40,338 nt of DNA. It comes from an uncultured Bdellovibrionales bacterium (GTDB taxonomy: Bacteria; Bdellovibrionota; Bdellovibrionia; Bdellovibrionales; UBA1609). Location: the NCBI GenBank assembly GCA_903833275.1, contig CAILEP010000032.1, positions 1 through 40,338 of the forward strand, read 5' to 3'. Positions 10,879 through 22,205 of the stretch are shown here, in pieces. The notes beneath the pieces were generated by a model, which saw nothing but the letters and a program-made list of their open reading frames with translations, had not been told where the DNA came from and ran no database searches. The translations under genes and the position numbers were made by a program. Every line of letters begins with the position of its first letter. The stretch's first letter is position 1.

Positions 10879-13620
10879 ATGGCAAAAAAAACAGCGACAA
10901 AATCACCAACTAAATCAGCTTCGGCAAAAGTAGCGCCGAAAGTGACGCCAAAGACGGTGGCTAAGGCCGTACCGACAAAAGAGGCCGTAACGGCTGCGCC
11001 CAAAAAGGCCAAAAAAGAGGCGGTCAAAAAATCCTCAACTGAAACCCGCAGACTGGTGATCGTTGAGTCACCGACAAAGGCCAAAACCATTCGCAAGTTT
11101 TTGGGGCGAGACTATATCGTCGAATCTTGCATGGGCCACGTACGCGATTTGCCACAGTCGGCAAAAGACATCCCTGAGAAATTTAAAAAACAAAAGTGGG
11201 CGAATCTTGGCGTTAATGTCGATGACCACTTTGACCCGATTTATTGCATCCCTAAAAATAAAACCAAAATTGTCAGCGATCTGCGCGACAAAATTAGCGA
11301 TGCCACTGAGCTTATACTCGCGACGGACGAAGACCGCGAAGGTGAAAGCATCAGCTGGCACTTGGTGAATGTTCTGAAGCCAAAAGTGCCGATTAAGCGC
11401 ATGGTTTTTCATGAAATTACCAAAGAAGCCATTCAGGGCGCCCTCAACGATTGTCGCGAGATTGACATGAATCTGGTGCGTGCCCAAGAGGCGCGCCGCA
11501 TTCTTGATCGCCTCGTCGGCTACACAATTTCACCGTTTCTCTGGAAGAAAGTGGCCTATGGCCTTTCAGCCGGGCGCGTGCAATCGGTGGCCGTGCGTCT
11601 TGTTTCAGAGCGAGAGCACGAGCGTATTCGTTTTAAAAAATCTAAATATTGGGATGTTACGGCTGATAACGAAAAGGCCGGCACCGGCTTTGCCACGAGA
11701 ATTGTTTCTTACACTGGTAAGCGCATTGCGAGCGGCAAAGATTTCGATAGCACCACCGGTAAACTTTTAAAAGATAAGTCGGCAGATATCCTCGCTCTCG
11801 ACGAAAATCAGGCCGATAAAATTCGCAAAGAAGTTGAGAAAAAAGACTGGGTCGTGACCGAGGTTGAAGAGCGCCCGGTTTCTCGAAAGCCAGCCCCGCC
11901 TTTTATCACTTCGACATTGCAGCAAGAAGCCAACCGCAAGCTGGGTTTAGGTTCTCGCGAAACCATGCAGGTCGCGCAGAAGCTTTACGAAAAAGGTATG
12001 ATCACCTACATGCGTACGGATTCTATGTTTTTGTCAGAGCAGGCCATACAAGCCGCGCGCAAAGAAATTGTTAAACTTTACGGCAAAGAATATCTGCCTA
12101 AAGAATTTCGCGACTACGGTAAGAAAAAAGTGAAAGGCGCACAAGAGGCGCACGAAGCGATTCGCCCCGCCGGGACAGAATTTGCTCTACCAGAAGAGGC
12201 TGAGCTTTCGGGTATCGAACTTAAGCTTTACGAATTGATCTGGAAGCGCACGATGGCCTGCCAGATGGTGAACTCAGAGCACAAGCAAGTGACGGCTCGA
12301 ATTCAAGCGGGTGATGCTATTTTCGGAGCCTCAGGCATGACCATCGAATTCGCCGGTTTTTTAAAGGCCTACGTTGAAGGCAGTGACGACCCTGATTTAG
12401 AGCTTGAAAACAACGAAGTGCGCCTGCCCGAACTTAAGAAGAACGACAAAATCAAAGTGGTTTTAATTAAGTCAAATGAGCATGAAACTAAACCGCCAGC
12501 GCGTTTTACTGAAGCTTCGCTGATTCAAACGCTCGAGCGCGAAGGGGTCGGCCGCCCATCAACTTACGCTTCGATTATTGGCACCATTCAAGATCGTGGT
12601 TACGTAAAAAAAGTCGGTAATGCGTTGATCCCGACCTTTACGGCACTGGTTGTTTCGAAACTTTTGAGCGAGCATTTGCCTGATTATGTCGAGACCAGCT
12701 TTACTTCGGCGATGGAGCAAGCGCTCGATGACATTGCCGCCGGCGACCTCGATCAAGAAAAGTATCTCACCTCGGTTTATTTTGGTGAGAAAGGTTTGAA
12801 GAGACAGGTTGAGAAACGCGAAAAAGAAGTCAAAGAAGAGAACTCGCGCAGTATTCAGCTTGAAGGCCTCAAAAATTTAGATTTTCGTGTCGGCCGCTAC
12901 GGCGCGTACGTTTGCAGGCCAACCGAAGTCACTGGCGAAGAAGTTTGTGCGTCGATACCCGAAAATCAATTTCCGGGTGATATGACGACTGAAATTGCCA
13001 ATAAATTGATTGATCAAAAAATTAACGGCGCTGATTCGATCGGCAAAGACCCAGTTTCGGGCGAGCCCATTTATGTTTTGTCGGGTCGTTATGGCCCCTA
13101 TGTACAATTGGGCGAAGGCGATGCCGCCAATAAAGAAATTAAACCCAAGCGTATGGCTTTACCGCAGGGTCTTGAACCTGAAAAAGTAACACTTGAGCAG
13201 GCGCTTTGGCTGCTGACCCTGCCGAGAAAATTAGGCACTCACCCAGACTTGAAAAAAGAAATCAAATTGGGTCTCGGTCGTTTTGGCCCCTACGTTGTTT
13301 GTGACGGGGACTATCGCTCAATACCGCGAACTGAAGATTTATTTAGTGTTGGCCTGCCACGTGCTCTCGAACTTTTTGCCCAACCCAAAAAAGGTCGCGG
13401 ACGCTCGGTGCCGTTGAAAGAATTGGGCCCGCATCCAGATTCTAAAGTTTTGGTGCAGGTCTTAAACGGTAAATATGGGCCGTACATCAAATGTGGCGAA
13501 GTGAATGTGTCGTTACCTGAGGGTGTGAAGCCCGAAGACGTCACTATGCAATCCGCCATGGAGCTTATCGCTAAAAAGGGCAAGCCCGAGAAAACTTCGC
13601 GTCGTCGCGCTAGCGCATAA
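10879..13620 (+). CDS. topA: DNA topoisomerase I (type IA)
   Basis: A protein of 913 residues that relaxes negatively supercoiled DNA by cutting one strand. It starts with a 58-residue Lys/Ala/Thr-rich tail, followed by the Toprim domain (VIVESPTKAKTI, Glu63; TDEDREGESI metal site), and the central domain with the active-site tyrosine Tyr377 in MITYMRTDS. The C-terminus lacks the Cys4 zinc fingers of E. coli TopA and instead has four modules of the Toprim C-terminal repeat type: GRYGAYVCRP, GRYGPYVQLG, GRFGPYVVCDG and GKYGPYIKCG. This layout is found in alpha- and deltaproteobacteria and other groups. The ATG has GAAG upstream. A repeated AT-rich box precedes the gene, and a palindromic tandem repeat covers its stop codon. 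Confidence 0.97.
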   Translation: MAKKTATKSPTKSASAKVAPKVTPKTVAKAVPTKEAVTAAPKKAKKEAVKKSSTETRRLVIVESPTKAKTIRKFLGRDYIVESCMGHVRDLPQSAKDIPEKFKKQKWANLGVNVDDHFDPIYCIPKNKTKIVSDLRDKISDATELILATDEDREGESISWHLVNVLKPKVPIKRMVFHEITKEAIQGALNDCREIDMNLVRAQEARRILDRLVGYTISPFLWKKVAYGLSAGRVQSVAVRLVSEREHERIRFKKSKYWDVTADNEKAGTGFATRIVSYTGKRIASGKDFDSTTGKLLKDKSADILALDENQADKIRKEVEKKDWVVTEVEERPVSRKPAPPFITSTLQQEANRKLGLGSRETMQVAQKLYEKGMITYMRTDSMFLSEQAIQAARKEIVKLYGKEYLPKEFRDYGKKKVKGAQEAHEAIRPAGTEFALPEEAELSGIELKLYELIWKRTMACQMVNSEHKQVTARIQAGDAIFGASGMTIEFAGFLKAYVEGSDDPDLELENNEVRLPELKKNDKIKVVLIKSNEHETKPPARFTEASLIQTLEREGVGRPSTYASIIGTIQDRGYVKKVGNALIPTFTALVVSKLLSEHLPDYVETSFTSAMEQALDDIAAGDLDQEKYLTSVYFGEKGLKRQVEKREKEVKEENSRSIQLEGLKNLDFRVGRYGAYVCRPTEVTGEEVCASIPENQFPGDMTTEIANKLIDQKINGADSIGKDPVSGEPIYVLSGRYGPYVQLGEGDAANKEIKPKRMALPQGLEPEKVTLEQALWLLTLPRKLGTHPDLKKEIKLGLGRFGPYVVCDGDYRSIPRTEDLFSVGLPRALELFAQPKKGRGRSVPLKELGPHPDSKVLVQVLNGKYGPYIKCGEVNVSLPEGVKPEDVTMQSAMELIAKKGKPEKTSRRRASA

Positions 13621-13665
13621 AAATAGACGCGCTAGCGCATAAAAATAGACGCGCCAGCGCATAAA
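13606..13665 (+). repeat. 22-bp tandem repeat with a perfect 10-bp palindrome, over the topA stop codon
   Basis: The unit CGCGCTAGCGCATAAAAATAGA occurs at 13606-13627 and 13628-13649, and in part, with one change, at 13650-13665. Each full unit contains the palindrome GCGCTAGCGC followed by an A-rich stretch; the first unit supplies the last codons and the TAA of topA. It lies between topA and the convergent secreted-protein gene, ending at the base before that gene's stop codon. The small hairpins may protect the mRNA ends, but the pattern looks more like replication slippage. Confidence 0.85.
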
Positions 13666-20876: not shown

Positions 20877-21209
20877 ATGGCGCGTTCCAAATTTATTTTC
20901 GTCTATATCACGTGCCCGAAAAAAGCCGTCGCCGAAAAAATCGCCAAAGAGGCCGTTCAAAGAAAACTTGCTGCCTGCGCCAACATTTTACCGAATATGC
21001 AAAGTGTCTACCGCTGGCAGGGGCGAGTGGTGCTAGACAAAGAGATCGTATTGATTTTGAAAACGCGCAACTCGCTGTTCAAGGGCCTTGAGAGCTTGGT
21101 AAAGCGAATGCATCCATATGAGTGCCCCTGTATAGTGGCCTTATCGGTAACCAAGGGCAGTCGTGAATATTTGGGCTGGCTCGAGGCTCAAGTTTTTGAC
21201 CAGAGCTAA
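20877..21209 (+). CDS. cutA: CutA-like divalent-cation tolerance protein
   Basis: A protein of 110 residues, the family's usual size. The trimeric CutA fold is recognisable by its N-terminal strand (FVYITCPKKAVAEKIA), AACANILPNMQSVYRWQG, the EIVLILKTRN strand and the ending HPYECPCIVALSVTKGSREYLGWL. CutA was linked to copper tolerance in E. coli, but its molecular role is uncertain. The gene starts 7 bases after the E1 beta stop, so it is probably co-transcribed. Confidence 0.93.
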   Translation: MARSKFIFVYITCPKKAVAEKIAKEAVQRKLAACANILPNMQSVYRWQGRVVLDKEIVLILKTRNSLFKGLESLVKRMHPYECPCIVALSVTKGSREYLGWLEAQVFDQS

Positions 21210-21242
21210 ATTCGGCAATAGAATTCTAAGTTAGAGGTTTGA

Positions 21243-21734
21243 ATGGAATTTTGGCGTAAATGCAGTTCATGTAAAAACCCAATCGCCTTCGGTGCGCGCT
21301 ACTTTCAGTGCAGCGTTTCAACTTGCAATGGGCAACGAACGGGCTACGTCTTTTGTAGCGTGGCCTGTTTTGAGCGACATTTGCCAGGCGCGCGGCATAA
21401 AGATGCTGCGGCTGTAGAGGTGCATGCTCCAACTCAGGGGATGTCGCCAGCCGATTCTCAAGCCCCGCGACGAACAATCATTCAGCCGACCCCGGTCAGT
21501 GGTGGGGCTAAAAGCCCGGCAGCCCACTCGTCGCCTCAAGAGGTGCTGGTGATCGCCTCGCGAATCAAAGACTACATTCAGGCCCACGCGGACTATAATA
21601 CGTCAGGCGGGGTCATGGACGTGCTATCAGAGCACCTTCGAAACATCTGCGACCGAGGCATCGACAATGCTCGGGCCGATGGCCGCAAAACAGTCATGGA
21701 CCGTGACTTCAGTTTTCTTAAAAATTTACGGTAG
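21243..21734 (+). CDS. Zinc-finger protein with a C-terminal histone fold
   Basis: A protein of 163 residues. Residues 7-52 form a zinc finger: Cys7/Cys10, Cys23/Cys28, Cys38/Cys42 and His46/His52, a double-zinc pattern like ZZ or HIT fingers. A Pro/Ala/Ser-rich linker follows (53-98). The last 65 residues match a single histone fold: helix 1 (VLVIASRIKDYIQAH), helix 2 (GVMDVLSEHLRNICDRGIDN), then ARADGRKTVMDRDF, the loop 2 motif RKTV-x3-DF typical of archaeal and Bdellovibrio histones. DNA binding is inferred. I recall that histones fused to a ZZ-type finger have been described in bacteria, so the family may be known, but its function is not. It follows cutA by 33 bases. Confidence 0.8.
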   Translation: MEFWRKCSSCKNPIAFGARYFQCSVSTCNGQRTGYVFCSVACFERHLPGARHKDAAAVEVHAPTQGMSPADSQAPRRTIIQPTPVSGGAKSPAAHSSPQEVLVIASRIKDYIQAHADYNTSGGVMDVLSEHLRNICDRGIDNARADGRKTVMDRDFSFLKNLR

Positions 21735-21764: not shown

Positions 21765-21802
21765 AAACCTAATTTTGGCAGCTAAACCTAATTTTGGCAG
21801 CT
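21765..21802 (+). repeat. 19-bp perfect tandem duplication
   Basis: AAACCTAATTTTGGCAGCT occurs at 21765-21783 and again directly at 21784-21802. It covers the stop codon of the minus-strand gene at 21788, so the last codons of that gene and its stop are present twice, the second time after the true end. It looks like a recent slippage event. Confidence 0.95.
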
Positions 21803-22150
21803 AAACTGTAGAACCTTGTTGCCCAAAGTGTAGCTAAGGGTCGCGGGTAGGCCGCCACCGTTCATAACGTAAGTGCCGCTAATTTGGGTCGGGGTGCTAC
21901 GCGAACCGGTCAAAATCTGCAAATAGATAAAGCGCTCGGTTTTATGATAAGTGGCATCAAAAGAGTCAGCACCGCTGTGGGCAGAATAGTAAATATGATC
22001 GGCATCTTCTGAGGCCATTGGCACTTTAAGGTGAGATTGGTCGAGAATGGCTCGGCATGCGACATCGGCGTGAGCCACTGCAGCGAAAACCATTGAAGCT
22101 AGGGCCAGGCATAGTGATTTTGAAACGAAAGTGGCAGCTATTTTAACCAT
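21788..22150 (-). CDS. Small secreted protein of unknown function
   Basis: A protein of 120 residues with a signal peptide: MVKIAATFVSKSLCLALASMVFAAVAHA, then DVACRAIL. The ATG at 22150 has AAAGGG immediately before it, which is too close for a ribosome site, so an ATG at 22177 (nine codons earlier, after TAGAG) may be the real start. The mature part of about 92 residues has Cys near both ends (VACRA and QFSCQN), which could form a disulfide, and strand-like segments (FIYLQILTG, ISGTYVM, ATLSYTLG). No family recognised. It is convergent with the histone-fold gene and lies downstream of the small membrane protein gene, in the same direction. Confidence 0.6.
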   Translation of the reverse strand: MVKIAATFVSKSLCLALASMVFAAVAHADVACRAILDQSHLKVPMASEDADHIYYSAHSGADSFDATYHKTERFIYLQILTGSRSTPTQISGTYVMNGGGLPATLSYTLGNKVLQFSCQN

Positions 22151-22205
22151 CCCTTTGATCAAACACCACAAGGGCATCTCTAGCAAGGGTTTTGGTTGGG
22201 GTCCG

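Follow-up and report, generated by a model that had tools for sequence, protein, structure and literature searches.

The protein encoded at positions 21,243 to 21,734 of the window (the whole stretch of DNA that was analysed, 40,338 nucleotides from an uncultured Bdellovibrionales bacterium) is a ZZ histone, an already described kind of protein, and we propose, at a probability of about 0.5, that it works as an adaptor in which a scarce, DNA-binding histone dimer would be joined to fingers that dock a putative partner. ZZ histones are a published category with exactly this architecture of finger, linker and histone fold (PMC11390915); a sequence-only reading of the same DNA had described them as reported, with no assigned role, in agreement with that paper. 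We favour the adaptor because computation finds a histone fold that matches the bacterial histone HBb and keeps its DNA contacts, a conserved set of finger ligands, and genes that link finger and histone repeatedly, whether fused, nested or split, besides fingers that occur bare. New, in that we did not find them in the literature searched, are the finger's independence of the histone and the existence of split and nested genes. Histones have only recently become established in bacteria, and the branch that bears fingers is without an assigned function.

The gene and its parts are arranged as follows.

21,196 to 21,224, + strand: promoter-like match TTGACC-17-TAGAAT just 5' of the start, from a consensus scan (a weak match, with 2 in the region against 1.1 expected).
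21,243 to 21,734, + strand: ZZ histone gene, an open reading frame of 163 codons plus stop with an ATG start, to which 17 relatives align at full length.
21,243 to 21,425, + strand: N-terminal ZZ-like finger, residues 1-61, from alignments, a separate AlphaFold2 model (pLDDT 86) and ZZ domains as nearest folds.
21,426 to 21,536, + strand: low-confidence linker, residues 62-98, with pLDDT < 50 at residues 71-74 and 84-98.
21,468 to 21,482, + strand: basic-hydrophobic linker motif RRTII, residues 76-80, aligned as a variant of the family's RRII/RIIV.
21,537 to 21,731, + strand: histone fold, residues 99-163, with helices at 105-116, 122-145 and 153-162, from phmmer, AlphaFold2, Foldseek and VIA-align, with DNA-contact positions kept.

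A GAGGT stands 4 nt 5' of the ATG. Searches of Pfam and NCBIfam with the window protein gave sub-threshold matches only, and its homologue in Bdellovibrio bacteriovorus (genome G281) is 65% identical. The AlphaFold2 model of the full-length protein, built with the 17 homologues, has a mean pLDDT of 78; because its pTM is 0.40, the relative placement of finger and histone in it is not to be read.

The claim, made from the letters alone, that the C-terminal part carries a histone fold with an RKTV-x3-DF motif proved correct. Residues 99-156 match the HBb chains 8cmp and 8fvx in a phmmer search of solved structures (E 5-6e-12), and the motif occupies residues 148-156. The sequence-only reading had staked this claim on the predicted structure, and AlphaFold2 with the 17 relatives returns helix-loop-helix-loop-helix, with block-mean pLDDT of about 82-97 over the three histone helices and the short strands of the loops unassigned in the monomer model. 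HBb ranks first in Foldseek, and 8fvx ranks first in VIA-align (Z 8.1, 63 residues, 1.4 Å). Modelled helix 3 (153-162) is longer than the 3-4 residues of the truncated helix 3 in the alpha3 family; many homologues stop right after RDF, beyond which the window protein runs on, and the fold of this extension is predicted only. A weak Pfam match to DUF1931 was rejected as an identity, reflecting the common histone fold only. Our own alignments were used for histones because the Pfam histone model at E 0.001 detects neither histone of this genome. The other of these, a stand-alone protein for which a search had been suggested, is present on another contig (G000:C6:50720-50893); it has 64 residues, is of the HBb type and begins two residues before the histone fold, with no tail.

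The DNA contacts of HBb are T8, S9, K10, K12, T23, S24, A25, K52, T53 and R57 (PMC11317129). Across 105 aligned ZZ-fusion domains, S9, K/R10 and K/R12 occur in all, K/R52 in 103, T53 in 104, R/K57 in 103, and T23 and S24 in 96; the R51-D58 clamp is kept nearly universally, 104 of the domains have A or V at position 8, and position 25 is variable. The window protein has A, S, R, K, T, S, G, K, T and R at the ten positions, thereby keeping nine, counting the conservative changes K10R and A25G, with T8 replaced by A. Judged from these residues, the histone part likely binds DNA, at a strength relative to HBb that they cannot tell. The window has D and Q in place of the helix-1 lysines K13 and K16 of HBb, and the net charge of its histone part is 0 (family mean +1.2), against +3 for the HBb of the same genome. 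These changes, with the A or V at position 8, would suit a protein scaffold like the eukaryotic TAFs, in which DNA organisation would have been lost and both finger and dimer would bind proteins; since most direct phosphate contacts of HBb are kept in nearly all members, we regard such a scaffold as improbable.

Compared with known histones, the protein resembles HBb (Bd0055, the 'bacterial dimer' histone; 8fvx, 8cmp, 9ezz and 9f0e) in histone fold, RD clamp and most DNA contacts. HBb, however, is short, abundant and probably essential, whereas ZZ-type domains form a separate branch (100/100) with A/V for T8, R at position 36 and a finger attached. The face-to-face (FtF) histone HLp of Leptospira (9qt0) shares the fold at 33-34% identity and 1.3-1.4 Å, but its tetramer residues R49, N53 and R55 are N142, D146 and R148 in the window, which sets the window protein apart from the FtF class. 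Nothing basic distinguishes it from published ZZ histones, which likewise combine an N-terminal C4 plus C2H2 ligand set, a linker and a C-terminal histone fold related to HBb. The fourth C4 ligand lies 35 residues after the first in every sequence read (C42 in the window), whereas a figure legend in PMC11390915 gives C53 of D0LYE7 (C20 + 33), possibly a slip in the legend.

The Cys/His double-zinc finger that had been read at the N-terminus is borne out by its ligands, C7-x2-C10, C23-x4-C28, C38-x3-C42 and H46-x5-H52, all eight of which are invariant among the 17 full-length homologues, as are W4, K6, K11, I14, Y20, V25, S26, R32, F37, P48, A55 and A57. A wider set of 38 fingers keeps seven of these ligands without exception, and C38 at 90% or above. 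Taken with the HBb match and the 65% identity, such conservation goes well past what chance would give. By homology, the finger would bind zinc. Foldseek places its model closest to the ZZ domains of p62, BIG, KCMF1, HERC2 and PRT1 (best E 0.012, TM 0.53/0.62), and in VIA-align several ZZ domains score a Z of 4-5, as does a ribosomal protein, at 4.6. With the eukaryotic domains (p62, HERC2, BIG, KCMF1) it shares the eight-ligand order and may share the overall fold, and differs from them in its x4 and x3 ligand spacings and in the lack of a Pfam ZZ match, ZZ being absent among the 25 Pfam families listed for the 38 fingers (E up to 10) in searches whose HMMER filters drop weak matches. At the positions that we take, by ligand spacing, to be equivalent to the acidic-pocket residues of p62, the window finger has S8, G34 and V36. 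The finger can fairly be called 'ZZ-like', short of an established place in the eukaryotic ZZ family itself. Fingers of the MYND, HIT, FLZ, MYM and VATC types were rejected on sub-threshold matches only, though the FCSxxC-x3-H end resembles them. That the nearest folds are peptide-binding ZZ domains supports the adaptor; against it, the ZZ peptide pocket is reported not to be conserved in the bacterial finger (PMC11390915).

The charge of the finger bears on the main rival to the adaptor, a two-site DNA binder and minor nucleoid-associated protein, in which finger and histone would both bind DNA and the dimer would bridge or locally reshape it with no protein partner. Finger net charge is +5 in the window and +3.7 as a family mean, above that of the histone part in both cases, and three of the invariant residues, K6, K11 and R32, are basic; such a finger could itself bind DNA, which counts against the adaptor. 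The rival also draws on the basic, VILRR-like tail of the separate finger proteins, where the pattern [IV][ILV][RK][RK] is seen in 14 of 16 and would be expected in 0.4. The linkers of the fusions have a basic-hydrophobic pattern of their own, R-[IVLM]-[IVL], which 64 of 106 contain, when shuffling each linker gives an expectation of 5.1 (the window's RRTII, with an inserted T, is no exact match). Both patterns were picked after viewing the alignments, and kinship inflates the contrast between observed and expected. Charge alone is weak evidence, however, the nearest finger folds are protein-binding domains, and some bare fingers lack the basic tail and occur in genomes without a detected histone, where bridging would need something else. 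We consider a two-site binder possible, at odds of roughly one in four.

The distribution of the finger favours the adaptor. We read every finger locus in 291 genomes sampled from the window's phylum and sought a histone in the same frame. The sequence-only reading had proposed a search for homologues, which yielded, beyond the 17 full-length relatives, a finger in 138 of the 291 genomes: in 111 it is coupled to a histone (110 in one frame, plus G212, counted as a broken fusion), in 16 it is a separate protein of 105-130 residues without a histone but with the VILRR-like basic end motif, and in 11 it is bare, at about 70 residues. That the finger is so widely shared a part supports the adaptor model. 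A second finger match occurs in only one genome, as a fragment at a contig edge, and in G212 (locus L272) finger and histone lie in neighbouring frames, which is a broken gene or an assembly error. Surveyed genomes are related, so that these counts are not independent events, and many assemblies are incomplete, which makes absences less certain than presences. The loci of the separate fingers are listed here.

L177-L180, L187-L194, L197, L199, L226 and L158: VILRR-tailed finger proteins.
L174-L176 and L181-L186 (family f13), L049 (G044), L196 (G187), L105 and L125: bare finger proteins of about 70 residues.

All 16 genomes with tailed fingers have exactly one histone, which is necessarily a separate gene. 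Five of the bare-finger genomes have a histone; the other six, of genus g63, yielded none of any type, even with the Pfam models for histones and DUF1931, so the finger has a function there for which a histone is not required, a point that counts against the adaptor. Fusion genomes have another histone in 79 of 111 cases and none detected in 32. In a Myxococcota sample the finger occurs in 43 of 140 genomes, with 29 of the 30 loci read being fusions. Further fingers, bare or tailed, come from the genome collection, in Oligoflexia and in a Deferrisomatales MAG, the latter with no histone detected. A search that starts from histones misses part of this family.

These genome counts also bear on whether the finger might be a histone reader that binds the tail or body of HBb, the protein then capping or marking HBb-coated DNA. 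ZZ domains of HERC2, p300 and ZZZ3 do bind histone H3 tails (PMC11390915), and HBb is present in the window's genome; but that HBb has no tail to read, the 32 fusion genomes lack another detected histone and the six bare-finger genomes lack any, and the idea is judged unlikely in PMC11390915 too. We give it very little credence.

Nineteen stand-alone histones were read: ten belong to tailed-finger genomes (the remaining six such genomes entered the histone count only), three to f17 genomes where a fusion is present too, and six to genomes in which no finger was detected. All 19 have the ZZ-type A at position 8 and group with the fusions, on the ZZ side of the 100/100 branch that splits off HBb, in a tree of few columns whose inner forks are mostly weak and of which we lean only on that split. 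The ten from tailed-finger genomes are thus of the ZZ subtype, not HBb.

Genus g73 (family f21) shows the two forms nested in one gene, at the following loci.

L204, L205, L208, L212, L214, L216, L222 and L223: nested loci, compared with sister genomes that have the short histone only (L284-L287).

In all eight genomes an ATG survives in the fused frame, 7-8 residues ahead of the histone, where the stand-alone histones of the sister genomes start. For several pairs of a fused and an unfused gene the DNA can be aligned on either flank, so the two occupy one locus that either has or lacks the finger segment. The ribosome-binding match at the internal ATG is weak in most (AAGG), likewise in the unfused genes, and two products from one nested gene are a prediction. 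The window gene is without such a nested start, its nearest internal ATG lying 33 residues before the histone with no ribosome-binding match.

From these forms we put forward, more tentatively than the adaptor itself, that the finger is a bacterial family that works with the ZZ-subtype histone as a fusion, through an internal start or from separate genes, ZZ histones then being the fused form of a two-part adaptor complex. An internal-start locus could in that case yield both finger-histone and free histone, and where the genes are separate the finger would carry the VILRR-like tail. Genomes with a separate or bare finger and a matching separate histone allow a direct test of the finger's role and of the idea of one complex.

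As to how the adaptor would work, homology to HBb suggests that the histone part dimerises and makes HBb-like contacts with the DNA backbone, with no bulk packaging, which is disfavoured because the ZZ histone of B. bacteriovorus HD100 is low in expression, with no role assigned (PMC11390915). Each subunit would carry a ZZ-like two-zinc finger on a flexible linker, the finger would dock a candidate partner protein, peptide or other ligand, and the ZZ histone would place this partner on DNA or mark DNA for it. The earlier suggestion, that such a design could tether DNA or protein, or recognise either, at particular sites, is no more than plausible. Family data favour a partner-binding adaptor because the finger occurs as a separate gene and alone, with no conserved neighbour; site specificity found no support. 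A second histone is found in only half of ZZ-histone proteomes (PMC11390915). The longer second histone of B. bacteriovorus is Bd3044 (PMC10627809), and as this species has two histones we infer that the G281 homologue corresponds to Bd3044. A review states that its deletion is lethal (PMC11318664), whereas the deletion section of the primary paper covers only bd0055, and we do not rely on essentiality of Bd3044.

A tree built from 39 ZZ histones of the order puts the window protein in a supported branch with Bdellovibrio proteins (99/93 and 96/92) and apart from the protein of G001, a genome of its own genus. Forcing these two together costs 22.4 log-likelihood units (p-AU 0.009), for a pair picked after the identities had been seen, and vertical descent of the ZZ histone within the genus is disfavoured on this value. 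The separation would be accounted for by horizontal transfer or by an old pair of copies followed by loss. A phage origin was rejected, with no relative among viral contigs.

Around the gene, no neighbour is common across the genera compared, so we set aside genome neighbourhood as a clue to function; this, with no partner known, counts against the adaptor. A CutA1-family gene (20,877-21,209, Pfam E 7e-37) lies on the same + strand and ends 33 bp upstream of the ZZ histone, and co-transcription is possible; other genera did not show this pairing, and the best cutA matches in nine relatives reach 33-47% identity only. A 132-residue open reading frame on the - strand (21,788-22,186), with no Pfam match at E 0.01, converges on the ZZ histone. 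Directly 3' of the ZZ histone gene is a 19-bp perfect tandem repeat of 2.2 copies (21,765-21,806), AAACCTAATTTTGGCAGCT, and elsewhere in the window (13,606-13,665) a 22-bp tandem repeat, CGCGCTAGCGCATAAAAATAGA, runs for 2.7 copies at 97% match.
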